From Gordonibacter massiliensis (ex Traore et al. 2017) (GTDB taxonomy: Bacteria > Actinomycetota > Coriobacteriia > Coriobacteriales > Eggerthellaceae), in the NCBI GenBank assembly GCA_900170005.1, contig LT827128.1:3344168-3408167 (forward strand): a stretch of DNA of 64,000 bases, read 5' to 3'. Numbering within the stretch: the stretch's first letter is position 1; each line of letters begins with the position of its first letter. Shown here piece after piece: positions 34,913-59,785 of the stretch. The notes below the pieces were generated by a model. That model searched no databases. It was given only the letters and a program-made list of their open reading frames with translations, and had not been told where the DNA came from. The position numbers and the translations under genes were made by a program.

Positions 34913-34916
34913 CGTC

Positions 34917-40495: not shown

Positions 40496-40591
40496 GGAGC
40501 CAGTATAGCGCCTGACGCCCATTGTTCGCCACTAACATTATTCTTTTACTCGAATAGTCAAAATACTGTCCCTAAAGTACAGGGCACGTTT

Positions 40592-40720: not shown

Positions 40721-43700
40721 ATGAGTCATTCCAAGCAGAAGAGTCATTGCGGAGGGGGTGCGATGAAAAGAGAGATCGCGGTATCGACGTCTCGAATGCC
40801 GGCGTTGTTCCGAGCGTTCGTAGCGCTGGTGCTGTGCATGGGGCTCATGGTCCCGTCCACGCTGACGACCAACAAGGCGTACGCGGCGACCGACGCGACC
40901 TACGAGGGCGTCAAAGCCCAACTTCTTCCCGATTACAACCACGGGACGATCAGCGTATCGTCTGTCGATGCCCAGGATGATGTGATCGAGCTCGAAGTGG
41001 GCGAAACGGCCACGATCACCGTGGACCCGTACCAGCATGTGCAGTACAAGGGCTGCCGGATGTGGGACAAACCCTGTCCGAGCGGGTGCGAGGATATGGT
41101 ACCCGGCGGCGGCGAGTGTTTTGTTCCGGGTCTCGGTTGCAAGTGTGACCAGACTCCTTCGCTTGAGACCGCCGATGTGACGGCGACGCCCGGCGACGGC
41201 TCCATTATCGCCGTTGGTTCGCCTGTTGCCGACGGCGATATCGCCGCGTCAGAGGCGGGGACGAAGAACAAGGCTTCCGTCACGGTTACGGCCGAGGCTC
41301 CCGGAGAGACGACGTTGAACGTGGGAGCCGACGGCCTGTACTTCTGGTATGGGGCAAGCAAGACGTACACGGTCAGGGTTGCCGAGCGTGACACGACGGC
41401 TCCCACCGTCAAGGCCGACCAGAAAATCCAGCTGCGCCAGGCCGGCGACACCGGCACCGCTCGTGTTTCGCTGGAGGGCGCGAGCCAAGAGTGGGCAGAC
41501 AAGGTCGAGTCGGTGTCCGTCGAAGCCCTCAGCGGCGACGACGCGGGTTCCGTGAGCGCTCTGTCCGCCGAGCAGTACGCGGTGGATGCCAAGAACGGCC
41601 GCATCACTTTCAACCGCACCGAGGCAAACCCGGTCTTCTCCGTCGCGCCGGGCGAGGGTGACCCGATCGACGTTGCCGCATGGGGCAGCACCACGACCTA
41701 TCCGCAGTCCAAGCAGTACAAGGTGACCGTCGAAGCCGACGGCTACGCCGATGTGGTAGGCGACGTGACGGTGTATACGGGCGCTGCCACCACTTTCTCT
41801 ATCGTGGTGGACGAGGACGGTAGCGACGAGACGACCGACGACCGCACGGTCGTGAAGACCTACACCAAAGACGAGATCGAGCGGATGTCTACGTTCCAGA
41901 ACGGCTCGTCGCAGTGTGGTATGACCGGTTTCCGCACGTTCTCCGCCAAGGGCGTCGCCCTGGCCGACCTCATCGCGAGCGCTGGCGTCGAAGTGAGCGA
42001 CAAAGATGCGTTCAAGCTCGACACGACCGACGACTTCGGTCGCATGTGGAGCTACTCGCAGCTGTTCGGCGACCGCTACTTCCTGCAAAGCATCTACGAC
42101 GACCCGGACATGAAGGCCGCTTATGCCGAGCTCGTCGCTTCCGACGACGAGGCGGGTGCAACCGTCGAGCTTCGCAAGCTGTTGGCGAGCAAGGCCGTGG
42201 AGGACAACTCCATCGCCAAGCCCATGATTTCGGCGAACTACGCCGAGACCATGATCTCGTCCGACCAAGTGGCTAGTGCGGTGCTTCCCACCGAGGACAA
42301 CACGAAGATCAACGAGCTCGTTGGTGCCGAGAACCAGTATCGCTTCACCTACGGCATATCCCTGGTGCAGGAGGACTGCACGGTGTCGTTCGCGGGCGAG
42401 GGTGTCGACGTGGAGCCCCAGACGGTGAAGAGCCACCTGATGACCTCCACCGAGAACACCACCATCCGTTCGACCTACTGGAACAACGCGCTCGTTATCT
42501 ACAAGAACGCAGCCGAGCCCGTCGAGCCCAGCACGGCGGCCGACAGGATCGCCAAGCCGGCCGACCCGGTGCGCGAGGGCTACGCCTTCGGCGGCTGGTA
42601 CACCGACGAGGCCTGCACCGACGGCAACGAGTTCGACTTCGAGGCCAACGACGGCACGGTGGAAGCGTCCACCACGCTCTACGCCAAGTGGGTGCAGGAC
42701 GGACTCGAAGGCCTGGAGAGCCCGCATGACTACCCGTCGAACTTCGATCAAACCTATACCTACACCATGGCTGACGCCGGCGAGTTCGGCATGGCTGTGA
42801 CCTTCGACGCCAAGACCGCGACCGAGTCGAACTACGACTTCATCTACGTTTACGACGGCAATGACAACCTGCTCGGCACGTACTCGGGCACCGAGCTTGC
42901 CGGCAAGACGGTCTACGTGCCGCAGTCCGACACCGTCAAGATCCGTCTTACCTCCGACTCGTCGGGCAACAAGTGGGGCTTCAAGGTGACGGGCGTTCAA
43001 GCGCTCACCGAGAACAACATCGGGCTTGTTGGGGCCGTCGCCCCCATCTCGGCCCAGTTCATGACCGATGGGGCCGCAAAGCCCGAGCCTGTGGTCACCT
43101 ATGGCGCCAAGACGCTGGTCAAGGGCGACGACTACACCGTGACCTACCAGGACAACACCGCGGTCGGTACGGCCAAGGTCGTCGTGACCGGTGCGGGCAT
43201 CTACACCGGCTCCATCGACCGCGAGTTCCAAGTGGTCGACGCCGATCATCCGGCCGAAGGCGCCACCGTCAAGGCCGGCCAGAAGGTCCTGCTTCGCCAG
43301 GCCGGCGACACCGGCACGGCGCGCGTGTCCCTGGAGGGCGCGACCCCCGAGTGGGCCAACGCGGTCGAGTCCGTCACGGTGACCCCCGTCGTGGACGGCG
43401 TCAAGGGCGAGCCCCAGACGCTCTCCGACGGCCAGTACTCCGTGGACGCCGCCAGCGGCCGTGTGACCTTCACGCGCACCGCGGACGAACCGGTGTTCTT
43501 CATCGCCGCCGGCGAGGGCGAGCCGATCGACATCGCGGGCATGCGCGGCACGACCACCTATCCGCAGTCCAAGGTCTACGAGGTTTCCGTCAAGGCCGCC
43601 GGCTACGCTGACGCGGCCGGCGAGGTGTCGTTCTACACCGGCACCTCTGAGAAGTTCTCCATCATCGTGGACGAGGACGGCAACCCCGACACCACCGGCG

Positions 43701-46561
43701 ACCAGACGGTTGCCGGGTCCTGGACCGCCGACGAACTCAAGGACCTCGGCGGCTTCGGCTTCCAGAACGGCTCGTCGCAGTGCGGCATGACCGGCTTCCG
43801 CACGTTCTCCGGCAACGGCGTCTCGCTGGCGGACCTGCTCGAGGAGTGCGGCGTCACGGTGTCCGAGAGCGACGCCTTCCTGCTGGACACGTCCGACCAC
43901 TACGGCAACAACTTCACCTACGACAGCCTGTTCGGCGCCCAGCGCTACTTCCTGGCGGGCATCTACGACGACGACTTCAAGGCGAAGTACGCCGAGCTCG
44001 TCACCTCCGACGACGAGGCCGGCGCCACCGTCGAGCTGCGCCGCCTGCTGGCGGCCAAGGCCCTGGAGGACGGCTCCACCGTCGAGCCGATGGTGTCCAC
44101 CGGCTACGCCGAGACCATGATCTCGTCCGACCAGGTGGCCGACGCGGTGCTGCCGACCGAGGAGAACACGGCCATCAACCCTCTGGTGTCCCTGGAGAAC
44201 CAGTTCCGCTTCATCTACGGCATCAAGCTCGCCCAGGACGACTGCACGGTCACGTTCGCGACCGGCGACGGCTCGGCGGTCGAGCCCCAGACGGTGAAGA
44301 GCCACCTGATGACCTCCACCGAGAACACCACCATCAAGTCCAGCTACTGGGCCAACGCCCTGTACGTCTACCGCGGCAAGGGCGCGCCCGTCGAGCCCAG
44401 CACGGCGGCCGACAGAATCGCCAAGCCGGCCGACCCGGTGCGCGAGGGCTACGCCTTCGGCGGCTGGTACACCGACGAGGCCTGCACCGACGGCAACGAG
44501 TTCGACTTCGAGGCCAACGACGGCACGGTGGACGCGAGCACCACGCTCTACGCCAAGTGGGTCGAAGCCGAGCCGGTCGAGGATATCGACCTCGGCATGA
44601 CGTTCCCCGCCGATCCCGGCACGGTATCGACCGACATGGGTCGCAACCCGGCTGGCAAGGTGAATTTCAGCCTGAAGCCGTCCGACGACGCTTTCGCTGC
44701 CTACCAGGCGGCGCATGCCGACGCGACGAAGAAGGACATGCTGCAGGCATGGATCGACGGCATCACGTCCGTGACCATCGACGGGGTTAAGCTCGAGGGC
44801 AAAGCCTTCAGCGAGTGGAAAAACGAGCTGACCAACGCCGCCGATGACGCGGGCAAGCTCAAGTACTACGAGATTACGGCCGGCACTTCGTCGGCATCGG
44901 TGGCGCTACCCGTCGCGCTCTTCGACACCACGTCGAGCGAGACCGACACCAAGACGCTCGCCGTGGAGTCCACGGGCTTCGCGGCCGTGTCGGGCGACGT
45001 GACGTATCGCAACATCGGTGCGGAGGACCTCGTCGTGCGCGTGCTCGACGAGAACGGCGCCGTCCAGTCCACGAAGGTGCTCACTCAGGACCAGTTGAAG
45101 AGCCTGAACGTGCAGAAGCGCTACAACACCAGCGCCAACTGCGGCATGGCGGGCCTGCGCTCCTATACGAGCGAGGGCGTGCTGCTGACCGACGTGCTTG
45201 ACGCGGCCGGTGTCGAGTTCGGTCCCGGTATGACGCTCAAGCTGCGCGTGAACGACCAGCTTGATGCGAACGGCGATGCGTCGACCGCCGAGGACGGCTA
45301 TATCGGCAACGCCCAGTTCTCGTACGACTACCTGTTCGGCCAGCCGCGCTACTATTATCCAGCCGGGTGGGACGACGCCACGACGTATCCCGAACTGGGA
45401 GGCAAGACCATCTACAGCTTCCTTTCCCAGGACATGCGCGCCTGGAAGGGCGACGACGAGCAGTCCAAGACGCTTGCCAAGCTCATAGGTGCAACCAAGG
45501 AGGAAGTGCAGCCGATTCTCGCTTGGTCGTGGAACGAAGGCGTTGTGGCTTGGGACGGCGCGAACCCGTCTGCGGTCAACGGCTACAACGGCTACACGGA
45601 TCAGGAAACGTATCGCTTCCTCTTCGGCATGAAGGCGGCCGATGACGGTTCCATCACCGACGACAACACCACGTTCTCCAACACGTACGCCGTGTTCGGC
45701 ATGGACGTCGTGGCCGGTGAAGTCGACGAGCCCGGAACGTACGGCATCACCTACAACCTCGACGGAGGCGTGAACGCGACCTCCAACCCGGCCACGTACA
45801 CGGTTGGCACGGCCGTGCAGCTGGCGGCTCCGACCAAGGACGGCTACACGTTCGACGGTTGGTACACCGATGCGTCGTTCTCCAATCGGGTGACCGAGAT
45901 AGCCGCAGGCGTGTCCGGCGATGTCACGCTTTACGCGAAGTGGGTCAAGAACGCCGATCCGACTCCCGAGCAGCCTGCTACCGGCACCAAGACCGATCCG
46001 GCGACGGGCGTTGCGGCGAGCGGCTCCGTGCTCGCTCCTGGCGGCAGCGCCGCCGACGGCAGCTTGAAGGTGTCGGAGATGCTGTCCTCGAGCGACCGCT
46101 TCCAGGAGTTGAAGTCGAAGTACGCACCGGCGAACAACCTGCTGTTCAAGGTGTTCGACGTGTCCCTGCAGAACCTGAACGGCGTTGAGATCACCGACTT
46201 GGGCGCCGACGGGCTCACGCTCACGTTCCCTGTAGGGGCCGAATACAACGGCAAGCCGGGCACGATCATCCATCTGCACAAGAACGCAGACGGCACGGTG
46301 TCCGAGCAGCGCAGCGCCGACGGCCAGAAGGTGGTCGACGGCAAGCTGTCCATCTCGGGCGTCAAGAACTTCTCCGAGTTCGTGGTGATGGTGAACGACA
46401 GCATCGCGACCGCAGGAGGAAACGCGTCCGGTACGACGTTGACGAAGACGGGCGACAGCCTGCCGATAGTGCCCATCGCCTGCTTCGGTGGAGCGGCCGC
46501 GCTGCTGTTGGCGCTGGCCGTGCTCGCCCGCCGTCGCGACGGCATGGACGAGAGGGGCTAG
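40721..46561 (+). CDS. 1946-residue modular surface protein (six-Cys domain, HID-like, CUB-like and InlB-type repeats)
   Basis: Signal peptide about 1-55 (ends NKAYA). Order: six-cysteine Ig-like domain about 75-225 (C-R-M-WDKP-C start); HID/DUF1533-like domain (ending YKVTVEADGYADV); a first large module with the motif QCGMTGFRTF; InlB-type repeat (FGGWYTDEACTDGNEF); CUB-like domain (YDFIYVYDGND); a tandem-repeat Ig domain (LVKGDDYTVTYQDNT); second HID-like, second CGM module and InlB repeat; a third, more diverged set (NCGMAGLRSY); C-terminal sandwich domain; TLTKTGDSLP, one helix and RRR. The end resembles a cell-wall or membrane anchor without a canonical LPxTG. HID domains bind hemoproteins in streptococcal Shr, so hemoprotein capture is a hypothesis. 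First gene of the locus. ATG at 40721 has AAAGGAG 9 nt upstream. Confidence 0.85.
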   Translation: MSHSKQKSHCGGGAMKREIAVSTSRMPALFRAFVALVLCMGLMVPSTLTTNKAYAATDATYEGVKAQLLPDYNHGTISVSSVDAQDDVIELEVGETATITVDPYQHVQYKGCRMWDKPCPSGCEDMVPGGGECFVPGLGCKCDQTPSLETADVTATPGDGSIIAVGSPVADGDIAASEAGTKNKASVTVTAEAPGETTLNVGADGLYFWYGASKTYTVRVAERDTTAPTVKADQKIQLRQAGDTGTARVSLEGASQEWADKVESVSVEALSGDDAGSVSALSAEQYAVDAKNGRITFNRTEANPVFSVAPGEGDPIDVAAWGSTTTYPQSKQYKVTVEADGYADVVGDVTVYTGAATTFSIVVDEDGSDETTDDRTVVKTYTKDEIERMSTFQNGSSQCGMTGFRTFSAKGVALADLIASAGVEVSDKDAFKLDTTDDFGRMWSYSQLFGDRYFLQSIYDDPDMKAAYAELVASDDEAGATVELRKLLASKAVEDNSIAKPMISANYAETMISSDQVASAVLPTEDNTKINELVGAENQYRFTYGISLVQEDCTVSFAGEGVDVEPQTVKSHLMTSTENTTIRSTYWNNALVIYKNAAEPVEPSTAADRIAKPADPVREGYAFGGWYTDEACTDGNEFDFEANDGTVEASTTLYAKWVQDGLEGLESPHDYPSNFDQTYTYTMADAGEFGMAVTFDAKTATESNYDFIYVYDGNDNLLGTYSGTELAGKTVYVPQSDTVKIRLTSDSSGNKWGFKVTGVQALTENNIGLVGAVAPISAQFMTDGAAKPEPVVTYGAKTLVKGDDYTVTYQDNTAVGTAKVVVTGAGIYTGSIDREFQVVDADHPAEGATVKAGQKVLLRQAGDTGTARVSLEGATPEWANAVESVTVTPVVDGVKGEPQTLSDGQYSVDAASGRVTFTRTADEPVFFIAAGEGEPIDIAGMRGTTTYPQSKVYEVSVKAAGYADAAGEVSFYTGTSEKFSIIVDEDGNPDTTGDQTVAGSWTADELKDLGGFGFQNGSSQCGMTGFRTFSGNGVSLADLLEECGVTVSESDAFLLDTSDHYGNNFTYDSLFGAQRYFLAGIYDDDFKAKYAELVTSDDEAGATVELRRLLAAKALEDGSTVEPMVSTGYAETMISSDQVADAVLPTEENTAINPLVSLENQFRFIYGIKLAQDDCTVTFATGDGSAVEPQTVKSHLMTSTENTTIKSSYWANALYVYRGKGAPVEPSTAADRIAKPADPVREGYAFGGWYTDEACTDGNEFDFEANDGTVDASTTLYAKWVEAEPVEDIDLGMTFPADPGTVSTDMGRNPAGKVNFSLKPSDDAFAAYQAAHADATKKDMLQAWIDGITSVTIDGVKLEGKAFSEWKNELTNAADDAGKLKYYEITAGTSSASVALPVALFDTTSSETDTKTLAVESTGFAAVSGDVTYRNIGAEDLVVRVLDENGAVQSTKVLTQDQLKSLNVQKRYNTSANCGMAGLRSYTSEGVLLTDVLDAAGVEFGPGMTLKLRVNDQLDANGDASTAEDGYIGNAQFSYDYLFGQPRYYYPAGWDDATTYPELGGKTIYSFLSQDMRAWKGDDEQSKTLAKLIGATKEEVQPILAWSWNEGVVAWDGANPSAVNGYNGYTDQETYRFLFGMKAADDGSITDDNTTFSNTYAVFGMDVVAGEVDEPGTYGITYNLDGGVNATSNPATYTVGTAVQLAAPTKDGYTFDGWYTDASFSNRVTEIAAGVSGDVTLYAKWVKNADPTPEQPATGTKTDPATGVAASGSVLAPGGSAADGSLKVSEMLSSSDRFQELKSKYAPANNLLFKVFDVSLQNLNGVEITDLGADGLTLTFPVGAEYNGKPGTIIHLHKNADGTVSEQRSADGQKVVDGKLSISGVKNFSEFVVMVNDSIATAGGNASGTTLTKTGDSLPIVPIACFGGAAALLLALAVLARRRDGMDERG
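42521..42663 (+). repeat. 143-bp internal direct repeat, copy 1
   Basis: Identical to 44390-44532 except for one base (AGGATC against AGAATC). It encodes EPSTAADRIAKPADPVREGY and the InlB-type repeat. Recombination between copies would delete about 1.87 kb in frame. Confidence 0.95.
44390..44532 (+). repeat. 143-bp internal direct repeat, copy 2
   Basis: Second copy of the 42521-42663 repeat, one mismatch. The neighbouring GTGAAGAGCCACCTGATGAC segments before each copy are also nearly identical. Confidence 0.95.
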
Positions 46562-46705
46562 CTCCTTCGCCGGGTTTTGGCGAAAGGCGGCATGGAGGTT
46601 GTCTCGGAGGGCGGGACGCGGCCAGCGTTTCGCCCTCCCGGGGCGCATCGAGGGCCTGCGCGGTGTCTCGCGCGGGCAAGGCGAAGAAAGCTTAGGGGGA
46701 TTCAC

Positions 46706-48064
46706 GTGGTTTCGAAAACAGCCGTCAGAAGGGCTCGTCCCGACGCACGCGCATCGGCGCTTGGAATAGGGTTGGCGATCATGCTGGCGCTCGCGATGCT
46801 TCCGGCGCAGGCGTTCGCCTACTACAACCGGGGCAGCGTGTCGGTTGCTTTGGGAACCACGGCCATCGAGGTGCAGGCGGGGGCCACGGCGAGCGCGACC
46901 GTGTCCATCACGCCGTCGTCGGACGATCAGACCGAGGGGTGCGGCATGCCCAAGTGCCCGCAGGGGTGCGCCGAATCCTGCGCCGACGAGAACGGGCAGT
47001 GCCGTTGCTCCGGCCCCGACTACAAAACGTACTATCCCACGGCCGTGGCGTCGTCCAGCAACGCGAGCGTGGCCGTGGCCACCTACAGCGGAGGCGCGCT
47101 CACCGTGTACGGCAAGTCCGAAGGAGAGGCCGTCATCACCGTACGGGCCTCGCTGCGCCAGTTCACCGATGCCGAGGCTGCGCTCAAGGTGACGGTGTCG
47201 GGCACGGCTGTCGGTGCCCAAACGAGTTCGACGGCCTTCGTCGATGTGCCCGAAACGGCCACGGCAGACCAGGAGGACAAAGCCGCCTTCGTGGAGAAAA
47301 CTGTCATGGGCCGTCCCGTGCACAACGTGCGCATCGTCGACGGGTGCGACGCGGCCGGCCGCCTTGCGGAGATGGCCGGCGTCGACGGCGACGTGACGTT
47401 TTGGGAAGGCGACACGTACTACCATCCGAACTACTCGCTCACGTTCAACGGCACCACCTACGTTGCGTCCGCCGTGCAGCCCTTCGATGTGAGCCTTGCG
47501 GTGTCGACCGAGGCTGCGGGCGTGCTGAACCAGCCGCTTTCCGGCGTGCAGAACTTCGTGGCGGTCGATTTCGCCTGCAAGGGCGCGCTGCCCGCTCCCG
47601 CAACCGTGTACGCCCTGGCCGGAACCGCGCTCTCCGACGACGACGCCGTGGCGTTGTTCTCGTACGACAGCGCGGCGAAGGCGTTCGTGAAAGAAGACGC
47701 GCCCGCCGCCATGGTGGGCGGCTACGCCACGTTCACGGTGCAGGAAGGCAAGACCTACGTGGTTTCGTCGCGCGACCTGACGACGGAGGCCAAGGCCATC
47801 GTCATGGGCGGTTCGACCTCCGCCCAGCAGGGCGGCAGCTGCTGCGATCCCACGCCGGCCGCAGCGGCCACGACCGACGGCGCGTCGTGCTGCGACACGC
47901 CGAGCACCGCCATGGCCCCGATGGTTCCCCTTGCCATCGGCGTCATCGTGGTGGCGGCCGCGGCGGCCATCGTCGTGATCATCATGACCCAGCGCAAGGG
48001 CAAGGGCGCGGTGGAAGCTCCTGCTTCCCCGGCGGCCGACGCGAACGAGGAAGAAGGTCGTTAA
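46706..48064 (+). CDS. Membrane-anchored six-Cys domain protein with CC motifs (paralogue B)
   Basis: 452 residues from a GTG with AGGGGG 7 nt upstream. Signal peptide ends AQAFAYYN. The six-cysteine Ig-like domain covers about 50-170 (GCGMPKCPQGCAESC, then CRC). Residues about 195-365 form a second beta-rich domain (FWEGDTYYHPNYS, ATVYALAGTALSDDDAVALF) shared with the next protein. Then GGSCCDP and GASCCDT, two vicinal Cys pairs, one transmembrane helix (about 400-425) and a Lys/Arg-rich cytoplasmic tail. Probably anchored outside the membrane; the CC pairs could bind metal. Two nt before the next gene. Confidence 0.75.
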   Translation: MVSKTAVRRARPDARASALGIGLAIMLALAMLPAQAFAYYNRGSVSVALGTTAIEVQAGATASATVSITPSSDDQTEGCGMPKCPQGCAESCADENGQCRCSGPDYKTYYPTAVASSSNASVAVATYSGGALTVYGKSEGEAVITVRASLRQFTDAEAALKVTVSGTAVGAQTSSTAFVDVPETATADQEDKAAFVEKTVMGRPVHNVRIVDGCDAAGRLAEMAGVDGDVTFWEGDTYYHPNYSLTFNGTTYVASAVQPFDVSLAVSTEAAGVLNQPLSGVQNFVAVDFACKGALPAPATVYALAGTALSDDDAVALFSYDSAAKAFVKEDAPAAMVGGYATFTVQEGKTYVVSSRDLTTEAKAIVMGGSTSAQQGGSCCDPTPAAAATTDGASCCDTPSTAMAPMVPLAIGVIVVAAAAAIVVIIMTQRKGKGAVEAPASPAADANEEEGR

Positions 48065-48066
48065 CA

Positions 48067-49509: not shown

Positions 49510-52500
49510 CGGGCGTGCAGCCGCCGCATGCGCGGCGGCTGCACGCCTTTGCCAAACGCTGCTCATAGCCTTGCTCGTCGCCTGCGCCGTCTCGACTCCG
49601 TCGCCCGCGTTCGCGGCGATGGGCGGCATGGGCGGTTCCGGCTCGTTTGAGGGCATGTCCTCGGACGGCGCCGTCGCGCAAAGCGCGAACGACGACCCGA
49701 ACGCGGAGCAGCTCGGCCTCATGCCGAAGCTCTTCCGCCTCACCGGCGAGAGCCGCGCGTCCCAGGGCGAGGGCAGCCTGCCCGTCGAGGGCGTGGGTGC
49801 CGTCTTCCCGAACCTGCTGTCTGTGAACACCACGCCCGCGTCCATCAACACGGGTATCGAGTGCCACATGGACGAGGTGTGCGGCTTCGACCCCTGCACC
49901 TGCGGCAAGCCCGACGCGTGGGGCCACTGCGCGTGCGGCGGCTTCCGCGAGACCGCCCCCACCGTGACCATATCCACGAGCGACGCCAACGTGGCGCAGA
50001 TCGTGCAGGCGTTCGGCCAGACGTGGATCCTGCCCGTCGGGCCCGGCACGGCCACGGTGCAGATCACGGCCGACCTCGTGCACTACCGAAGCGCCAGCTA
50101 CGCGTTCGACGTGGAGGTGGCGCCGTTCGGCGCGGTGGACGCCCTGCTCATCGCGGCGGCGTTCCTGTTGGCGGTGGGCGTTCTGGTGGGCCTGTTCTTC
50201 CTCGTGCGGCTCATCGTGCGCCTCGTGCGACGCAAGCTGGCCGAGCGCCGCGCCTGGAAGGCGCGCGGCGACGAGCTGAAGGAGGAGTTCCCTTTGACGT
50301 GGCGCGCCAAGCTCCAGTCCGAGAAATACGCGAAGTCCCCTCGCGGCCGGCGTCGGCGCGCGGGGCATCGCCGTCCGTTCGCGCACGACTTCCTGTTCTC
50401 GCTGCGCCAGGCGGCCCCGGTGCTCGTGGCCGCGCTCGCGCTGTTCGCCGTGCTCGTGCCGGTGTCCACCTCGGTGGTGAACGACATATCCGTGTTCAAC
50501 GTGAACTACACGCACGAGCAGTTGAAGTTCCAGTTCTACGCGCAGGAGCTCGCGCCCGTCGTCAACGCGGCGTGCGTGCTGTTTGGCGCCGTGCTGGCCG
50601 TGGTGCTGTTCCGCTTCCTGCTGGTGAAACGCGCCACCACGGCGTTCTTCTCGGTGGGCTTGTCGCGCGTGAAGCTGTTCTTCTCGCGCTACCTGGCCGG
50701 CGCCGTGTGCATCGTGGTCGGCATCGCCGTGCCGTTCGCCGTGTCGCTGTTGCTGAACCATCTGGCGCTCGGGCTCTACGACGGCGAGGTCCACGAGTTC
50801 TTCTATGTCACCTGCGGTTATATCACGGTGGCGCTCGCGGCGTTCGCGCTCGCGGGCATCGCCGTCATCTGCGCCGGCACGCTGTTCGAGACGTGCACGT
50901 TCGGCGTGGCGCTGCTGGCCAGCGTCAGCGTGGTGCTGTGGGGCGTGGGCGTGCTGGCCGACTACCTGCTGGTGGGCAACGCCTCGGGGGCGGCGCTCTA
51001 CGGCCAGGCGGTGCAGGTCGAGCCGTCGTTTTTGTCCCAGCTGTCGTATCTGAACCCGCTGCTGTTCTTCTCCGACGCGGGCGGTTCGCACCAGTTCTTC
51101 ATGGCGCTGCATCCCGTGTACTATCCCGTGTTCGGATCGTGGTCGCTCATCATCGGCTGGTTCGCGGCGTACCTGGCGCTCTCGGCGCTGGGGCTGGCGG
51201 CGTTCTGCCGCCGTCGCGGCGAGCAGGCCGAGATGGCGGGCAAGGCTCCCGTGTTCTCGCTCTTCTCCGTGGCCGTGCTGGGCCTGGCCGCCTTCGCCGC
51301 CGCCGTGGCCCTGCTGGGCTCGGTGGACGTGGCGGTGGCGCTCGTGGTGGGCGCGGCGCTGTTCGTGCTCGTGTCCCTCGTGCTGCTGTTCGGCCCCCTG
51401 CGCGGTCGCACTGCGCGCCGCACGACGCTCGCGTGCGTGGGCGGCGAGCTCGCAGCCATGGCGGCCGTTGTGACGGTGGTGGCCGGCGGGGCTTTCGGGT
51501 ACGCGGGCTTCGTCCCCGCCGCCGAGGACGTGGAGAGCGTGGAAGTGTCCTACAACGGCTCGCCCAGCTATCTCACGCAAGGCTTCTCGGGCGTGGCCAG
51601 CGGCTCGTCCTACTACTACACGTCGTACCGCAGCTACGGCCAGGAGTCGTCCGTCGACATCGTGCGCTCGCTGCACGGCCAGCTCATCGACTCGGCGCGC
51701 GCGGCGCGCGAGACGAACTACGAGGACTTCCAAAGCTCGGTCGTGCCCTACGACGTGGTGCTGCGCTACCGCATGAAGGACGGCGGGGACGTGGTGCGCT
51801 ACTACAACCAGGCCACGGTGGGCGAGCTTTCCGCCCTGCTGGCCCTGGACAACAACGCGCACACCCACGAGCTGGAGAACGCCGTGGTCACGGGCGATAC
51901 GAGCGGCTTGTCCGACGAGGAGCGCGAGGCGCTGTCGAAGTCGCCCTCGTACAACGCCTATCGCGCTGGCTACGTCTACCTGGGCGACGGCGCGCTCAAC
52001 CGCATCATGCAGGTGGAGTGCACCGACGAGGAGCGTGCCCAGCTCGTTGCCGCCTTGGCGCACGATTTGGCGAACACGAATGCGAACGAGCGCTACCTGC
52101 CGTCCAAGCCGGCCCGCGCCGCGCTCATGTTCACGCTGTCGCCCGAGCTGGACGTGGCCTCGTTCGGCTATTCGTTCAGCAACGCCGTCACCTACGTCAC
52201 GGACGACTGGACCGAGACCATGGCGTGGCTCGAGGGCAAGGGCCTCATCGACGCGTTGGGCGGGCAGCTGGACTCCAAGGTCATCGAGCAGCTCACGTTC
52301 CAGCTCGACGACCCCTACGCGTCCATCAACAAGGTCACGCAGCCGGTGAGCCGCTACTTCATGGCCTACCGCAGCGAAACGGCCGGCCAGTACTGGATCA
52401 CGCAGGACTACGGCGCCCTCAAGGTGGTCGACGAGCAGAGCAAGATCGCCGAGATCGTGCCGAACCTGCGCATGGGCTGCTACATGACGGGCGGCTACCT

Positions 52501-52579
52501 GGTGCAGGCGAAGCTGCGCGGCATCGAGGCGTACGTGTACTTCTACCTGCCGGCGGAGCTCGCGCCGTCGTATCTGTAA
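49496..52579 (+). CDS. ABC-2-like permease with N-terminal six-Cys domain (paralogue D)
   Basis: 1027 residues. Signal sequence about 1-35; six-cysteine Ig-like domain about 85-210 (ECHMDEVC, CTCGKPDAWG, CACGG); transmembrane helix about 215-240; basic cytoplasmic loop (about 245-300); then a multi-helix permease region (about 305-680) resembling ABC-2 or MacB-like proteins; a final extracellular domain of about 340 residues (starting about 685, VESVEVSYNGSPSYLTQ). The matching ATPase gene starts 10 nt downstream. The fusion of the shared domain to a permease argues that it takes part in ligand handling by this transporter. ATG at 49496 overlaps the previous gene. Confidence 0.75.
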   Translation: MTPASGRAAAACAAAARLCQTLLIALLVACAVSTPSPAFAAMGGMGGSGSFEGMSSDGAVAQSANDDPNAEQLGLMPKLFRLTGESRASQGEGSLPVEGVGAVFPNLLSVNTTPASINTGIECHMDEVCGFDPCTCGKPDAWGHCACGGFRETAPTVTISTSDANVAQIVQAFGQTWILPVGPGTATVQITADLVHYRSASYAFDVEVAPFGAVDALLIAAAFLLAVGVLVGLFFLVRLIVRLVRRKLAERRAWKARGDELKEEFPLTWRAKLQSEKYAKSPRGRRRRAGHRRPFAHDFLFSLRQAAPVLVAALALFAVLVPVSTSVVNDISVFNVNYTHEQLKFQFYAQELAPVVNAACVLFGAVLAVVLFRFLLVKRATTAFFSVGLSRVKLFFSRYLAGAVCIVVGIAVPFAVSLLLNHLALGLYDGEVHEFFYVTCGYITVALAAFALAGIAVICAGTLFETCTFGVALLASVSVVLWGVGVLADYLLVGNASGAALYGQAVQVEPSFLSQLSYLNPLLFFSDAGGSHQFFMALHPVYYPVFGSWSLIIGWFAAYLALSALGLAAFCRRRGEQAEMAGKAPVFSLFSVAVLGLAAFAAAVALLGSVDVAVALVVGAALFVLVSLVLLFGPLRGRTARRTTLACVGGELAAMAAVVTVVAGGAFGYAGFVPAAEDVESVEVSYNGSPSYLTQGFSGVASGSSYYYTSYRSYGQESSVDIVRSLHGQLIDSARAARETNYEDFQSSVVPYDVVLRYRMKDGGDVVRYYNQATVGELSALLALDNNAHTHELENAVVTGDTSGLSDEEREALSKSPSYNAYRAGYVYLGDGALNRIMQVECTDEERAQLVAALAHDLANTNANERYLPSKPARAALMFTLSPELDVASFGYSFSNAVTYVTDDWTETMAWLEGKGLIDALGGQLDSKVIEQLTFQLDDPYASINKVTQPVSRYFMAYRSETAGQYWITQDYGALKVVDEQSKIAEIVPNLRMGCYMTGGYLVQAKLRGIEAYVYFYLPAELAPSYL

Positions 52580-52589
52580 GGGGGCGCCC

Positions 52590-53321
52590 ATGATAGAGGT
52601 GGCGAACATATCGAAGCGCTTCGGGGCCTTCACGGCGCTCGAGGACATCACGCTCACCGTGGCCGACGGCATGGTGTACGGCTTGGTGGGCTACAACGGG
52701 GCGGGCAAGACCACGCTGCTGAAGATCATCGCCGGCGTGTACAAGCCCGACGCCGGCGAGGTGCATATCGACGGCGTGCCCATGCACAGCGACCGGGTGA
52801 GCCACGACTCGCTGTTCATCGTGGCCGACGAGCCGTACTTCCTGCCCCAGGCCACGCCCGAGACCATGCGCTCGTTCTACCGCGGCTACTACCCGCACTG
52901 GTCCGACGACGTCTACGAGCGCATGCTGGCCCTGTTCGGCCTGGACCCCTTGGCGAAGGTCACGGGCTTCTCGAAGGGCATGCAGCGCCAGCTGGGCATT
53001 CTGCTGGGTTTCGCCACGGGCGTGAAGACCATGCTTTTGGACGAGAGCTTCGACGGGCTGGACCTGGGGAAGCGCAACCTGCTGAAGCGGTTGCTGAAGA
53101 CGTACGCGCACGAGCGCGGGGCCTCGGTCATCCTGTCGTCGCACAACCTGCGCGAGCTGGAGGACGCGGCCGACCATCTGGGCATGATAAAGGGATGCCG
53201 GTTGACGTTCGACGGCAGCGTGGCGGACGTGCACGAGCAGTATCCGGGGTCGTCTTTAGAGGAGATATTCCTGTCCGAGGGCGGGAATAGGGTTGAGGAA
53301 ATCGATGGCATTTTCGCTTGA
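52590..53321 (+). CDS. ABC transporter ATPase, partner of the six-Cys permease
   Basis: 243 residues. Walker A GYNGAGKTT (about 36-44), Q-loop region replaced by FIVADEPYFLP, signature FSKGMQRQ, Walker B MLLDESFDGLDLG and H-loop LSSHN. This GxSKGMQRQ signature is usual in ATPases of ABC-2-type exporters such as bacitracin or YtrB-like systems. It likely drives the permease encoded immediately upstream. Confidence 0.92.
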   Translation: MIEVANISKRFGAFTALEDITLTVADGMVYGLVGYNGAGKTTLLKIIAGVYKPDAGEVHIDGVPMHSDRVSHDSLFIVADEPYFLPQATPETMRSFYRGYYPHWSDDVYERMLALFGLDPLAKVTGFSKGMQRQLGILLGFATGVKTMLLDESFDGLDLGKRNLLKRLLKTYAHERGASVILSSHNLRELEDAADHLGMIKGCRLTFDGSVADVHEQYPGSSLEEIFLSEGGNRVEEIDGIFA

Positions 53322-54513
53322 AAATCGGGTGGTGGCCGCAGGGGTCTGGGACTCGGGGGCACGGCGCTCGGGCAGTCCTGGCTCGCACGAACAGCCCGCA
53401 GGGCTGTTCGGCTCGTGCGGAATCTCGCGGCGCGCCCCCGAGTCCCAGACCCCTGCGGGGGGCCCGCTTTGTCGGCTGGGTGAGGGGAGAATACAGCGGA
53501 GCGCCTTCGGCGCTTGTTTTGGAAGGATGTTCCGTCCTGCACTGGGCCAAGGTTCTGCGGCCCGTCATCCCGCACGGAGCCGAAGCGCCACCCCCTGTCA
53601 TCCTGAGCGGAGCGCGTCAGCGCGGAGTCGAAGGATCCCGCGCGGTGCCAACTGCGACGCTCCCGAGCAAAACCAAAGCGCCGCCCCCTGTCGTTTCGGG
53701 GAAAGCAAAAACGCCATCCCCTGTCCTCCCAAGGGAAGCCGCAGCTCCACCCTTTGTCATCCTGAGCGGAGCGCGTCGGCGCGGAGTCGAAGGATCCCGC
53801 GCGGCGTCAGCCATGGCGTTTCCTCAGGGGGCCGCCACGGTTGCGCAGCCCTCGCGGGCGGTTTCGCGGCCTGGCGCCTCTTCTTCCTCGCTCTCGTCTT
53901 GGCGTTCGCGACCTGCTTGGCGTTCGCCTCGCCGGCTTTCGCGCTTTCCTCCACGGCGGATCGCGTTGTGGAGCCGGTCGAGGTGCTGCGGGTCAGTGCC
54001 GGGGCGTTCGGCTCGGAGTCGGCGGCGGTCGTCGCCGACAGGGCGGGGGAGCTGGCGTTGCCGCGGTTTTGCCCGACGGCGCTTTCGGCGGAGTGCGACC
54101 CCGCGTCCATCGAGGCGGGCGTCGATTGCGGCATGGATTGGATGTGCGGCATCGAACCTTGCCTGTGCGGCTCGGCAGACGCGTGGGGCGGGTGCTCGTG
54201 CAACGGGCTGGAGACGACGTCGCCCACCGTGTCTTACGCATCGTCCGACGAGGGCGTCGTGCGGGTGGAGGAGGCGGCGGGGCGGGTGTGGCTCGTGCCC
54301 GTCGCGCCCGGCACCGCCACCGTCACCTGCACGGCTTCGCTCAAGCACTTCGCCGATACCGAAGCGCGCCTTGCGGTGACCGTGGGCGGTCCGACGCTCG
54401 CCGACGGCGTGCTCGCGGGCCTGTGCTTGCTGACGATCGCGCTGATCGCGGCGTGCGTGCTGCTCGTCCATCGCGCGATGAAGCGGAGGAGGCGCCATGC
54501 GAGCCTTTCGTAG
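53305..54513 (+). CDS. Short anchored six-Cys domain protein with repeat-encoded N-terminus (paralogue E)
   Basis: 402 residues if read from the ATG at 53305, which overlaps the ATPase gene by 17 nt and has GAGGAA 6 nt upstream. Residues 1 to about 170 are a translation of palindromic and dispersed repeats (two PERSASARSRRIPRG units), not a recognisable domain. The functional part starts with a signal helix (LFFLALVLAFATCLAFASPAFA split: LFFLALVLAFATC, LAFASPAFA), then the six-cysteine domain (about 268-355: DCGMDWMCGIEPCLCG, CSCNG), one helix and a KRRRR tail. No ATG, GTG or TTG lies close before the signal helix in frame. The TAG stop is supplied by the TAGGG element. It may be fused to repeats or be a decaying gene. 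Confidence 0.6.
   Translation: MAFSLENRVVAAGVWDSGARRSGSPGSHEQPAGLFGSCGISRRAPESQTPAGGPLCRLGEGRIQRSAFGACFGRMFRPALGQGSAARHPARSRSATPCHPERSASARSRRIPRGANCDAPEQNQSAAPCRFGESKNAIPCPPKGSRSSTLCHPERSASARSRRIPRGVSHGVSSGGRHGCAALAGGFAAWRLFFLALVLAFATCLAFASPAFALSSTADRVVEPVEVLRVSAGAFGSESAAVVADRAGELALPRFCPTALSAECDPASIEAGVDCGMDWMCGIEPCLCGSADAWGGCSCNGLETTSPTVSYASSDEGVVRVEEAAGRVWLVPVAPGTATVTCTASLKHFADTEARLAVTVGGPTLADGVLAGLCLLTIALIAACVLLVHRAMKRRRRHASLS
53336..53458. repeat. Palindrome with 25-bp perfect arms
   Basis: The arm 53336-53360 (CCGCAGGGGTCTGGGACTCG...) is perfectly complementary to 53434-53458. The interior has a second hairpin (CGCACGAACAGCCC...GGGCTGTTCG...CGTGCG). It begins 15 nt after the ATPase stop yet is open in the frame of the next protein. 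Confidence 0.9.
53595..53647 (+). repeat. GTCATCCTGAGCGG dispersed repeat, copy
   Basis: TGTCATCCTGAGCGGAGCGC, stem GCGCG-TCA-GCGCG, then GTCGAAGGATCCCGCGCGG. Near-identical to 53754-53811; related to 33361-33417 with a different, still self-complementary stem. Confidence 0.85.
53754..53811 (+). repeat. GTCATCCTGAGCGG dispersed repeat, copy
   Basis: Second copy in this gene; differs from the first by one base in the loop (TCG against TCA). Both are read in the same frame by the overlying gene. Confidence 0.85.
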
Positions 54514-54611
54514 GGGCGATCTCCTGATCGCCCGTTCGCGCGCAGCGCGAAAAGCAACTTCTGCCGGGTTTGCCGGCTTCGCCGGAACGGGCGATCGGGA
54601 GATCGCCCTTA
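54511..54611. repeat. TAGGG palindromic element, copy 2
   Basis: The arm 54511-54534 (TAGGGGCGATCTCCTGATCG...) pairs with 54588-54611 (...GAGATCGCCCTTA). The interior GTTCGCGCGCAGCGCGAA and CCGGCTTCGCCGG stems match copy 1 at 28183. The stem core is GCGATCT where copy 1 has GCGCTCT, with compensating changes in both arms. Confidence 0.85.
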
Positions 54612-54633
54612 CAGGTTCAAGGGGGTTGGGGGA

Positions 54634-55497
54634 ATGGTGATGAAAAGCGTTGTGAAGACGGCTTGCGCGGCCGTTGCGCTCGCGCTTTGCGCGCTCGCGC
54701 TCGTCGGCTGCGCGCAGGCGAAGGTGGCGGACGATTCGCCGCGCGTCGCCGACGTGCGGCTCTCCAGCACGAGCGCCATGACGGAGCCTTCGCAGGACGT
54801 GGAGGTCAAGCTCGTGTTCGACCAACCCGTGTCCGTGGCGGCCGACGCGGCCGACGACTTCGAGGTGCTGCTCAACGGCAGCCCGCTCGACGGCGGCGCC
54901 GTGGCGCTCGACGTGCGCGGCTCGGCCGACGGCGTCACGTTCGTGCTGCATCCCGCGTCCGGCGCCAGCACGGCCGGGGGCAAGGGCACGTTCTTCGCGC
55001 TGTACCAAAGCGGTTTCTCCGTGGCGGCCAAGCGGGCCGACGGCGCGTTGCCGTCCGTCACGGCGGCGTCCGGGTCGTGCGCCGTGCTCGACGCGCCGGT
55101 GACGGGCACGCTGCCCAGCGGCTTGGCCATCGAGGTCATCGACGCCCGCGTCGGCTCGGCGCAGGACAACCTGCCGGCCCAGACCTCCTTCAAGGTGACG
55201 TCCTCGGCGCTCGTGCGCGCCATCACCTGGTTCTCGCCCGACGGAGGCGCGACGAAGCTGCTCAAGCACAACCACACGTTCGCCGACGCCGACGCGCAGG
55301 ACTGCGCGGCCGACTTGGCGAAGGTGGTGGGCGAGACGACCGGGCTCGGCATCGTGGCCAAGGCTTCGGGCGACACGGTCACGCTCACGGCCACGGCGGT
55401 AAGCGACGGGCAGACCATCGACCCCGTGGTCGTGGAAGGCGTGGGCGTGGAAGGCGGGACGTACGACGCTTCCCAGGGCACGGGGGAGGGGGCCTGA
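54634..55497 (+). CDS. Lipoprotein of unknown function in the six-Cys locus
   Basis: 287 residues. Signal peptide with lipobox ALVGCAQ (Cys about 26). The mature part looks like two beta-sandwich domains (about 40-165, VRLSSTSAMTEPSQDVEVKL...; 165-280, ITWFSPDGGATKLLKHNHTF...). The HNH-type cluster KLLKHNHTF and paired Cys are notable, but no family is recognised. Its stop overlaps the permease ATG (TGATG), so it is probably a dedicated surface partner of the importer. Confidence 0.75.
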   Translation: MVMKSVVKTACAAVALALCALALVGCAQAKVADDSPRVADVRLSSTSAMTEPSQDVEVKLVFDQPVSVAADAADDFEVLLNGSPLDGGAVALDVRGSADGVTFVLHPASGASTAGGKGTFFALYQSGFSVAAKRADGALPSVTAASGSCAVLDAPVTGTLPSGLAIEVIDARVGSAQDNLPAQTSFKVTSSALVRAITWFSPDGGATKLLKHNHTFADADAQDCAADLAKVVGETTGLGIVAKASGDTVTLTATAVSDGQTIDPVVVEGVGVEGGTYDASQGTGEGA

Positions 55498-56681
55498 TGG
55501 CCGCCGAGCCGCTGGCCGCCGCAGCCGCGGTCGACGAGCTTCCGGCCGCGCGCTCCGCCGCGCCCGCTTGCGGCTCCACCGAAAACCCCGTCCGCGCCGC
55601 TTCCGATCACACGTCGGGAACCGCTCCCGCGAAGGCGTCCGGGCGCGCCCTCAGCGCCGCCGACGGCACGCCCGCCGCGCGCCGTCGCAAGGCGCTCGTG
55701 CTGATCGCGCTCGCCGCGCTCGTGGTCGCGAGCTTTCTGTTCTCGCTCACGCTCGGGCGCTACGACATGGACTTCGGGCAGGTGCTCGCCTTGTTCGCCG
55801 CCCCGTTTTCGGGCGCGGCCGAAGCGACGGACGCCAACGTGTTCTTCACCATCCGGCTGCCCCGCGTGCTGGCGGCGCTCGTGGTGGGGGCCGCCCTATC
55901 GGGGGCGGGCTGCGCGTTCCAGGGCATCTTCAAGAACCCCATGGTGTCGCCCGATTTGCTGGGCGCGTCGGCGGGCGCCTGCTTCGGCGCCGCGCTCGGC
56001 ATCCTGCTGTCGTTCGGGAGCTTGGGGGTGGAGATCGCCGCGTTCGTAGCCGGCGTGGCGGCCGTGCTCGTAAGCTACGGGCTTTCCAGCGTCATCGGGC
56101 GGCGCATGAGCGGCGTGCTCGTGCTCGTGCTGTCGGGCCTGGTGGTGGGCAACCTCTTCCAGGCGTTCACCTCGGCCGTGAAGTTCTTGGCCGATCCGAA
56201 CTCTCAGCTGCCCGAGATCACGTTCTGGCTCATGGGCGGCCTGTCGTCCGTGCGCGAAGGCGACCTCGCAGGTCTTCTGGCCGCGTTCGCGGTGGGAGCG
56301 GTGGGCATCATGGTGCTGCGCTGGAGGCTGAACGTCATGGCCCTCGGCGACGAGGAGGCGCTCTCGCTCGGCGTGAACGTGAAGCGCACGCGCCTGGCCG
56401 TCATCGCCTGCGCCACGCTGCTCACCTCGGCCTCGGTGGCCGTGGCGGGCATGGTGGGCTGGGTGGGCCTCATCGTGCCGCATCTGGCGCGCTTTTTGGT
56501 GGGTTCGGACCATCGCGCGCTCGTGCCGGCGTCCATGCTGCTCGGCGGCGCGTTCCTCATGCTGGTGGACGACGTGTGCCGCAGCATCTACACCACCGAG
56601 ATACCGCTGTCCATCCTCACGGCCATCCTGGGCGCGCCGTTGTTCGTGTACCTGATCTGCCGGCAGAGGAAATCGCTGTGA
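55497..56681 (+). CDS. FecCD-family ABC importer permease
   Basis: 394 residues. An Ala/Pro-rich N-terminus of about 60 residues, then nine or ten helices. Family landmarks: RLPRVLAALVVGAALSGAGC, FQGIFKNPMVSPDLLGASAG (the loop contacting the ATPase), GWVGLIVPHLARFLVG, and PLSILTAILGAPLFVYL. This family imports iron-siderophores, heme and cobalamin with an ATPase and a binding protein, which follow directly. No cobalamin riboswitch was found before the operon. Confidence 0.93.
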   Translation: MAAEPLAAAAAVDELPAARSAAPACGSTENPVRAASDHTSGTAPAKASGRALSAADGTPAARRRKALVLIALAALVVASFLFSLTLGRYDMDFGQVLALFAAPFSGAAEATDANVFFTIRLPRVLAALVVGAALSGAGCAFQGIFKNPMVSPDLLGASAGACFGAALGILLSFGSLGVEIAAFVAGVAAVLVSYGLSSVIGRRMSGVLVLVLSGLVVGNLFQAFTSAVKFLADPNSQLPEITFWLMGGLSSVREGDLAGLLAAFAVGAVGIMVLRWRLNVMALGDEEALSLGVNVKRTRLAVIACATLLTSASVAVAGMVGWVGLIVPHLARFLVGSDHRALVPASMLLGGAFLMLVDDVCRSIYTTEIPLSILTAILGAPLFVYLICRQRKSL

Positions 56682-57532
56682 GCGCCCGCGAAACGGCGCC
56701 GGCCGTGTCCGAACGCATCGAGGCCCGCGCCCTTGCCCTCGAAGTCAGCCATCTGGCCTGCGGCTACGGCGGCGATCCCGTGCTCGACGACGTGTCGTTC
56801 TCGCTCGCGTGCGGCCGGGCGCTCGTGCTGCTGGGCCCCAACGGCGTGGGCAAGACCACGCTGTTCAAAACCGTTCTGGGCTTCTTGCCGCGCCTTGCCG
56901 GCGACGTGCGCATCGAAGGCGAGGACGTGCGCGGCTGGACGCGCAAGCGCTACGCGCGCTCGGTCGCCTACGTGCCGCAGACGCACGATTCCGCGTTCGG
57001 CTTCACCGTGCGCGAGATGGTGCTCATGGGCCGCACGCCCTCGCTCGACGGCTTCGCCGGCCCCGGCCGCGAAGACGAGCGCATCGCCGACGCGGCCATC
57101 GACGAGCTGGGCCTGGCCGCGCTGGCCGACCGCGACTGCACCACGCTCTCGGGCGGCGAGCGCCAGATGGTGCTCATCGCCCGGGCGCTCGCCCAAGAGC
57201 CGCGCCTGCTGGTCATGGACGAGCCCTGCGCGAACCTCGATCTGGGCAACCAGGTCATCGTGCTCAAGCGCATCCTCGCGCTCGTGGAGCGGGGGCTCGC
57301 CGTGGTCATCACGTCCCACGATCCGAACCATGCGTTTTTGCTGGGCAGCGACGTGGTGTGCGTGGGGCGGAGTTCGGGCGTCACGGCGGGCGCGGCGCGC
57401 GACGTGCTCACGGCCGAGGCGCTGGGCGCGCTGTACGGCATCGAGGTGGGCGTGGGCGAAGTGCGGGGTTCCGGAGGGAAGAGGGGCGTGGCCTGCACGC
57501 CGTTTTTGGAGAGCGAGAGGATCGTCCCATGA
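56678..57532 (+). CDS. FecE/BtuD-like ABC importer ATPase
   Basis: 284 residues from a GTG overlapping the permease stop. Walker A GPNGVGKTT (about 52-60), Q-loop YVPQTHDSAFGFTV, signature LSGGERQ, Walker B LLVMDEPCANLDLG and H-loop TSHDPNH match the siderophore/heme/cobalamin importer class. It energises the preceding FecCD permease. Confidence 0.93.
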   Translation: MSARETAPAVSERIEARALALEVSHLACGYGGDPVLDDVSFSLACGRALVLLGPNGVGKTTLFKTVLGFLPRLAGDVRIEGEDVRGWTRKRYARSVAYVPQTHDSAFGFTVREMVLMGRTPSLDGFAGPGREDERIADAAIDELGLAALADRDCTTLSGGERQMVLIARALAQEPRLLVMDEPCANLDLGNQVIVLKRILALVERGLAVVITSHDPNHAFLLGSDVVCVGRSSGVTAGAARDVLTAEALGALYGIEVGVGEVRGSGGKRGVACTPFLESERIVP

Positions 57533-58839
57533 AAAACAAGCAACGCGATAACTGCTACGCCGACCGTGTCCGCGGAAACACCCGAGGGAAGGGGCGCGAG
57601 CGCGCCCTGCCTATCAAGGCCGCGCCTTCGTGCGACGGCGGGCTTGAGGGCGCTTCCGCATGCTTGTCCGCCGCGCGTCCGTCCCGCGCGCCGCGCGCCT
57701 TCACGCGCCGGAGCTTCCTCGGCTTGGCGGCCGTCGCGGCGGCGAGCGCGTGCGCGGGCGGCCTGCTCGACGGATGCGCCGGTGCCGGTTTCGCGCAGGG
57801 CAACCTGCGCAACGTCGCCGACATGGGCGGGCGCAGCGTCATGGTGCCCGAGCAGATCGATCGCGTGTTCTGCACGAACCCCATCGGCACGGTCGATTTG
57901 TTCGCCCTCGCGCCCGAGAAGCTGGCGGGTTGGAACTTCCGGCCGGCCGGCGACAACAAGAAGTACATCCCCGACGAGTACTTCGCCCTGCCGTCGCTGG
58001 GCGTGTGGATGGGCGCGGGCTCGGTGCCCAACGCCGAGGAGATCGCCGCCCAGGATCCCGACGTGCTGCTGTGCTACTGGACGGCGGACGAGGTGGGCGG
58101 CGGCATGGCCGACGACATCCGTGACGAGACGGGCCTGCCCGTGGTGCTTGTGGACTACGACGTGCGCAGCGCCCCCGAGATGTTCCGCTACGTGGGCGGC
58201 CTCGTCGGCTGCGAGGAGCGGGGCGAGGAGCTGGCCGCCTTCTGCGAGCGGAAGCTCGCGCGCATCGAGCGCATCGCCGCCAGCATTCCGGAATCGGAGC
58301 GCAAGTCCGTGTTCTTGGCCCAGGGCAACGACGGCCTCACCACCGATCCGGTGGGCAGCATGCACGCCACCGACGCGCTCGAGCTCATCAAGACGGGCAA
58401 CGTGGCCGATATGCCCGGCACCGAGGGCAAGGGCATGGGCATGCCCAGCGTGAACCTGGAGCAGATCATCACCTGGAACCCCGACGCCGTGCTCGTGGCC
58501 GAGTTCAACATGAGCGACTCGGAGAGTTCCGACATCTACGGCGCCATCCAGCAGGACGCGCACTGGAACAACGTGCCGTGCGTGAGGGCGGGCGAGATAT
58601 ACCGCATCCCCCAGTCGCCGTTCTCGTGGTTCGGCCGTCCCCCTTCGGCCGCACGCGTGCTCGGCTGCCTTTGGGTGCTGAAGGTGCTCTACCCCCAGTA
58701 CGCCTCCGACATCAACATGCGCGACGAGACCGTCGAGTTCTACCGCACGTTCTACCGCTACGACGGTTTCGACGAGTACACGCTCGACCAGCTTCTGGGG
58801 GCCGCCGGCATCGACAGCGTCACCGGGGAGAAGCGCTAG
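57529..58839 (+). CDS. Tat-exported iron-complex-type substrate-binding protein
   Basis: 436 residues. A long N-region carries the twin-arginine motif RRSFLGLAA at about residue 61 followed by a hydrophobic stretch and LLDGCAG, so the protein may be Tat-exported and lipid-modified. The mature part is a FepB/BtuF-type (class III) binding protein: MVPEQIDRVFCTNPIGTVDL, QDPDVLLCYWTADEVGG, and a C-terminal AARVLGCLWVLKVLYPQYA. ATG overlaps the ATPase stop (ATGA). It is the last gene of the importer and likely its ligand-delivery subunit. Confidence 0.9.
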   Translation: MKNKQRDNCYADRVRGNTRGKGRERALPIKAAPSCDGGLEGASACLSAARPSRAPRAFTRRSFLGLAAVAAASACAGGLLDGCAGAGFAQGNLRNVADMGGRSVMVPEQIDRVFCTNPIGTVDLFALAPEKLAGWNFRPAGDNKKYIPDEYFALPSLGVWMGAGSVPNAEEIAAQDPDVLLCYWTADEVGGGMADDIRDETGLPVVLVDYDVRSAPEMFRYVGGLVGCEERGEELAAFCERKLARIERIAASIPESERKSVFLAQGNDGLTTDPVGSMHATDALELIKTGNVADMPGTEGKGMGMPSVNLEQIITWNPDAVLVAEFNMSDSESSDIYGAIQQDAHWNNVPCVRAGEIYRIPQSPFSWFGRPPSAARVLGCLWVLKVLYPQYASDINMRDETVEFYRTFYRYDGFDEYTLDQLLGAAGIDSVTGEKR

Positions 58840-59650: not shown

Positions 59651-59724
59651 CGGGGCCGGGTTTCCGTCCGTTCGCACCGCCCGCCTCCACCGCACGGCCC
59701 TTTCCAGGTTTTTTCAAAATCGCC

Positions 59725-59751
59725 TGTAACCTTTTCCGCTTCCGGCGCGTC
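59725..59751 (+). promoter_or_regulatory. ECF sigma-type promoter before the sigma gene
   Basis: TGTAACC (59725-59731) and CGTC (59748-59751) are separated by 16 nt, the AAC-N16-CGTC pattern of ECF sigma promoters. It lies 35 nt before the sigma factor start and suggests autoregulation. Confidence 0.75.
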
Positions 59752-59785
59752 TAATAAACAATCGACGCGAAAAGGAGGTCCCTGC

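Follow-up and report, generated by a model that had tools for sequence, protein, structure and literature searches.

The closest described relatives of the locus treated here are envelope systems that deliver a ligand to a FecCD importer. In the Isd (NEAT) and HtaA-HmuTUV systems, such an importer is fed by one ligand-binding domain family that recurs in proteins of the wall and membrane and in those linked to the importer. In Shr-Shp-HtsABC of Streptococcus pyogenes (sia/hts), HID surface proteins precede the binding protein, permease, and ATPase of a FecCD-type importer, and heme is relayed through several envelope proteins (PMC2266757, PMC3359286, PMC10912661). Here, we describe a locus of ten genes (g1 to g10; 40721–58839, all on the + strand) in a 64,000-nucleotide window of the complete 3.95 Mb genome of Gordonibacter massiliensis. 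The locus resembles Shr-Shp-HtsABC in this order of parts, and Isd and HtaA-HmuTUV in that a repeated domain family appears to feed a FecCD importer. Unlike those systems, its ten proteins gave no Pfam match to NEAT or HtaA up to E 1, and it has two new families, the six-cysteine (six-Cys) and H-x-H domains, together with a binding protein exported by the twin-arginine (Tat) route and a membrane LuxR regulator. As searches for NEAT and HtaA, the domains that define such systems, came back empty, the locus stands outside Shr-Shp-HtsABC and Isd. The original prediction, made from the sequence of the window, knew of no named system with this gene set, and our search of the open-access literature likewise found no paper describing such a locus. 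It is real, conserved, and undescribed in the open literature searched, and the two new extracellular domain families are its newest part. We consider it somewhat more probable than the contrary that the LuxR gene and g1 to g10 are a self-contained, horizontally variable acquisition cassette that relays a metal-containing ligand to the FecCD importer, a reading that builds on observed anatomy, co-inheritance, shared paralogous domains, gene fusions, and a conserved promoter repeat.

The block opens with g1 (40721–46561), a large surface protein with a six-Cys domain, three Shr-like HID domains, Listeria-Bacteroides repeats, a CUB-like region, and a C-terminal anchor (LTKTGD, a hydrophobic stretch, and RRR). 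The next gene, g2 (~46706–48064; 70–95% identity in relatives), encodes a signal peptide, a type A six-Cys immunoglobulin (Ig)-like domain, a second beta domain, and a C-terminal transmembrane (TM) segment; its paralogue g3 (48067–49509) likewise has a type A six-Cys domain and a C-terminal TM segment. An ATP-binding cassette (ABC)-2-like permease, g4 (49496–52579), carries an N-terminal type B six-Cys domain and a big extracellular region, and g5 (52590–53321) is its ATPase partner (ABC_tran, 2.7e-22). The type B six-Cys protein g6 (53527–54513, start uncertain) has one C-terminal TM segment and is followed by the H-x-H family lipoprotein g7 (54634–55497). The last three genes encode a FecCD permease (g8, 55497–56681; PF01032, 7.5e-83), its ATPase (g9, 56678–57532; ABC_tran, PF00005, 4.7e-32), and a solute-binding protein with a Tat-type signal and lipobox (g10, 57529–58839; Peripla_BP_2, PF01497, 1.4e-19), in which RR-x-F and the lipobox Cys are invariant in seven homologues. 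Permease, ATPase, and binding protein thus form one set of overlapping genes, as in a FecCD-type importer (overlaps of 1, 4, and 4 bp at g7/g8, g8/g9, and g9/g10).

This agrees with the original prediction of ten same-strand genes, five of them for proteins with a six-Cys Ig-like domain (g1, g2, g3, the g4 N-terminus, and g6), and of a complete FecCD importer with a Tat-exported binding protein. The short gaps and overlaps that it described hold for most neighbors (2 bp between g2 and g3, a 14-bp overlap of g3 and g4, 10 bp between g4 and g5) but not for g1/g2 (~145–210 bp, depending on the choice of g2 start) or for the repeat-rich g5/g6 gap, so a single transcript is not assured. The closest locus-bearing relatives are Gordonibacter sp. 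28C (permease identity 96%) and Eggerthella sinensis (82%). The gene order is kept in sp. 28C and the E. sinensis-type genome, and seven further genera have it in rearranged form; this recurrence indicates an arrangement beyond chance.

In the six-Cys domain, a Cys-rich loop interrupts the first half of a Big_2-like Ig domain, and two patterns occur: type A (C..MxxCPxxC...C...GxCxC) in g1, g2, and g3, and type B (CxM...CGxxPCxCGxxDxxGxCxC) in g4 and g6. We searched a six-Cys profile against 397 genomes of the order. Matches were found in 52 genomes and were strong in 11, where they span the Cys region and the best E is 1e-28 or lower; in the remaining 41, the generic Ig half matched alone (mostly positions 50–111), at E 1e-7 or weaker. 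Transporter genes adjoin the six-Cys domain in every strong genome, with the locus split over two contigs in G396 and on short contigs in G392 and G382. Of 296 genomes sampled across the phylum, only the one studied here and its E. sinensis-type relative had strong matches. The original prediction held that its single-system idea would fail if six-Cys proteins occurred mostly without these transporters; with 11 of 11 strong genomes bearing both, that is not the usual case, and the domain is instead confined to the transporter-bearing locus. A structure model of g3 is Ig-like, with the Cys loop at low confidence and fold matches to generic Ig or S-layer proteins; given that low confidence, the model does not distinguish disulfide from metal binding by the loop.

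The lipoprotein g7 begins with an Ig-like domain, and its C-terminal domain bears an H-N-H-x-F motif that is invariant in ten sequences. Its AlphaFold model is confident (two domains, pLDDT 84.8), and a fold search with this model returned only generic Ig folds (best Z 5.6), the C-terminal H-x-H domain being barely tested by that search. By hhalign, the entire two-domain g7 is related to secreted proteins that open sister loci (probability 97.9, E 6e-13). A similar relationship joins it to the C-terminal portion of a protein with HMA and DsbD_2 domains and to other surface proteins in genomes G463 and G382 (97.5, E 6e-12). The H-x-H domain, as HQH, is also encoded by the surface gene that opens the E. 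sinensis-type locus (G202), and most other locus copies have members of the family among their secreted or surface proteins. In three genomes (G382, G463, and G465), six-Cys g6 and H-x-H g7 are one fused protein. In a class sample of 398 genomes, g7 relatives at E <1e-80 and the permease are found in the same nine genomes, and g4 homologues occur only at locus copies, save one weak match. Judged by motif and profile comparison, the H-x-H proteins make up a second new family, which the original prediction, naming g7 a lipoprotein, overlooked; g7 is thus not a generic lipoprotein. A relationship of this family to P19 was considered and found unsupported (hhalign probability 10).

The gene upstream of g1, a divergent LuxR-family regulator on the − strand (38972–40522; Pfam GerE, 1.7e-17), has 11 hydrophobic segments (~11–12 TM) and fits the 10–12-TM LuxR type, with a C-terminal GerE domain and ~10–12 TM segments. 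Among close genomes, all four that carry the block have an ortholog of this regulator, and none of the five that lack the block (three Gordonibacter, two Eggerthella-type) does. The LuxR/g1 promoter contains an operator-like inverted repeat of the CCTGT-N9-ACAGG type, CTGTCCCTAAAGTACAGGG (40566–40584), which is identical or one base off in Gordonibacter sp. 28C, G202, and E. sinensis. Across the 3.95 Mb genome, the exact sequence CCCTAAAGTACAGGG occurs just once, which leaves no wider regulon from which to read function. Co-occurrence and the conserved repeat together strengthen the earlier suggestion that the divergent regulator may control the locus, and the regulator belongs to the cassette. 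Related 10–12-TM LuxR proteins of Eggerthella lenta activate neighboring genes (PMC9734109). As with DadR, HcdR, and CadR of Eggerthella, a membrane LuxR protein lies beside an operon that it probably controls; unlike here, those regulators control molybdenum catechol dehydroxylases and no transport cassette (PMC9734109).

The genes that flank the block in our genome (~33.3 kb and ~59.7 kb) are directly adjacent in G070, G088, and G136, which are therefore empty sites; relative to these three close genomes, the entire 26-kb stretch of 33300–59700 is inserted. The same site holds a molbindin gene, the LuxR gene, and g1 to g10 in sp. 28C, and the LuxR gene and g1 to g10 in G202. The window copy additionally has modABC (34073–36612), an IS110-type transposase gene (37079–38161), and a TOBE molbindin gene (38341–38766). 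From these site contents, the core unit is the LuxR gene plus the ten genes, and these 11 genes are one insertable cassette, inherited or lost as one piece. Co-inheritance, seen in the empty sites as in the 11/11 six-Cys co-occurrence, backs the single-system idea.

The ABC-2-like label of g4, to which Pfam gives no match, comes from its topology (~11 hydrophobic segments) and from its YtrB/lantibiotic-type ATPase partner. The nearest NCBIfam models to g5, under cut-off, are lantibiotic-protection and PmtA exporters, which would suit a cassette of two units: g1 to g6 as an envelope sensing or defense ABC system (YtrBC/lantibiotic-protection-like), and g7 to g10 as an ordinary FecCD importer. 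The repeat-rich spacer that parts g5 from g6 (53322–53860) would suit it as well, with a big inverted repeat of 32-nucleotide arms (53336–53367/53427–53458) and two elements resembling repetitive extragenic palindromes (GTCATCCTGAGCGGAGCG...), of which the genome has 76 near-identical copies. The spacer is missing in G202, however, where g5 and g6 overlap; in three genomes, a fusion of six-Cys g6 with the homologue of g7 bridges the proposed boundary, and all parts co-occur wherever the locus contig is complete. We thus regard two separate units as rather unlikely. The g6 reading frame is open through the spacer repeats, so g6 may have a repeat-encoded N-terminal extension.

Turning to the ligand of the proposed relay, the FecCD importer class itself points to a metal complex. 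Together with the H-x-H and Cys motifs, a DUF4418/FtsX/LolD gene set, and one HMA-DsbD_2 protein, this suggests that the ligand is metal-containing; an iron or heme type is the most likely, taking about half of the probability. The original prediction named iron, heme, or a corrinoid as ligand and noted that HID domains bind hemoproteins in Shr; g1 has three Shr-like HID stretches (PF07550, 2.3e-11). These domains are limited to the Gordonibacter version of g1, with leucine-rich-repeat (LRR_5) or H-x-H surface proteins in their place in other genera, and no PDB chain matched a 200-residue stretch of g1 that includes part of the first HID. We therefore dropped Shr homology as evidence for heme.

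The DUF4418/FtsX/LolD set is found inside two sister loci. In G260, an insert (L033:8981–12116) encodes DUF4418, an FtsX permease, and a LolD-type ATPase, and the locus of G314 has the same (L035). In G383, the same module lies <8 kb from FTR1/P19 (L110). It resembles sifBCD of Bifidobacterium breve, which is required under ferrous-iron limitation (PMC5449479). The FtsX permeases and ATPase of these extra genes are thus a point of likeness to bfeUO/sifABCDE (PMC5449479); unlike that system, the cassette has no FTR1 or P19 among its ten genes, P19 was also not found in our genome, and the FtsX module is missing from the window copy.

Another extra gene, in the G463 sister locus (L080:14250–16556), encodes a protein with HMA and DsbD_2 domains and a C-terminal H-x-H domain, possibly copper-linked. 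Copper or another thiophilic metal, through Cu-chelate uptake or metal detoxification rather than iron acquisition, would also be in keeping with the Cys-rich domains with Met, the CC motifs in g2, and the H-x-H motif. The HMA/DsbD_2 gene is present in one genome only, though, and we know of no FecCD importer that serves in copper detoxification, which leaves this reading improbable.

Corrinoid uptake of the BtuCDF type, which the original prediction had listed among the ligand options, is less probable still, and we hold it very unlikely. BtuC is the best-scoring model for g8 and the corrinoid ATPase the second best for g9, but both scores are far under the equivalog cut-offs (217.8 vs 461 bits and 206.7 vs 537 bits, respectively), and BtuF is not among the solved-structure matches up to E 10. 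A corrinoid link by way of a riboswitch fell away as well, since neither the window nor any of eight sister loci gave an Rfam match to a riboswitch, be it the cobalamin type (usual, not obligatory) or another.

Among solved binding proteins, those nearest to g10 have no informative ligand in the search output, and the closest with a known ligand is MolA (molybdate) of the Haemophilus influenzae MolBCA importer (E 1.4e-16). This match, and the modABC and TOBE molbindin genes that adjoin the cassette here, raise the alternative of an oxyanion importer, which would supply molybdate or tungstate to the numerous molybdoenzymes of these bacteria, with the surface proteins as accessories; the molbindin gene is adjacent in sp. 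28C too, and one sister locus adjoins a molybdopterin oxidoreductase. Yet the similarity to MolBCA is partial, as the best stretch of g10 covers residues 279–387 only (the C-terminal third), and MolBCA is without surface proteins. Moreover, modABC is not at this position in sp. 28C or G202, and a freely diffusing oxyanion needs no elaborate surface proteins. Altogether, we judge oxyanion uptake unlikely. The other FecCD loci of our genome gave no clue to substrate.

A metal-ligand relay would then proceed as follows. The membrane LuxR protein may sense a signal and act at the CCTGT-N9-ACAGG-type site to control transcription. Wall- and membrane-anchored six-Cys proteins (g1, g2, g3, and g6) and H-x-H proteins would capture the metal-containing ligand outside the cell and hand it, via their paralogous domains, to two lipoproteins, the H-x-H protein g7 at the membrane and the Tat-exported g10, from which the FecCD permease and ATPase (g8/g9) would import it. 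The six-Cys ABC-2-like permease and its ATPase (g4/g5) might act on the same surface assembly, e.g., as the source of energy for releasing the ligand or as the exporter of a partner. Of these steps, we infer the direction of the relay, the metal ligand, and the role of g4/g5. The cell-surface relay of the original prediction has become likelier, because two paralogous domain families recur at different envelope depths beside the importer, while its Shr-based heme argument is lost.

Several observations weigh against this reading. The two wider gaps, one of them repeat-rich, could split the transcript; solved-structure searches matched no solved relative for the six-Cys and H-x-H domains; and a second (outer) H-x-H protein was not detected in the two Gordonibacter copies. 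Metal-linked extra genes occur in only 3 of 11 loci, and the DUF4418/FtsX set of our own genome adjoins non-iron genes.

Gordonibacter and Eggerthella have many molybdenum and iron-sulfur enzymes with which they alter drugs and dietary compounds, and for neither genus did we find a description of surface uptake of metal or heme in the open-access literature searched. Tentatively, and with a chance somewhat below even, the locus could represent a new Gram-positive relay class, mobile among gut Eggerthellales, in which six-Cys and H-x-H domains replace NEAT and HtaA and an ATP-driven surface complex leads to the FecCD importer. If the relay reading is true, a mobile, strain-variable cassette with two new surface families would explain between-strain differences in nutrient competition. 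The domains are concrete targets, as each can be purified and assayed for its ligand, and genetic tools are available in Eggerthella (PMC9734109).

Downstream of the cassette, an extracytoplasmic function (ECF) sigma factor and a DUF4179 protein are encoded at 59700–62058. We rejected these genes as part of the system, as the DUF4179 protein occurs both in relatives with the cassette and in three of the five genomes without it.

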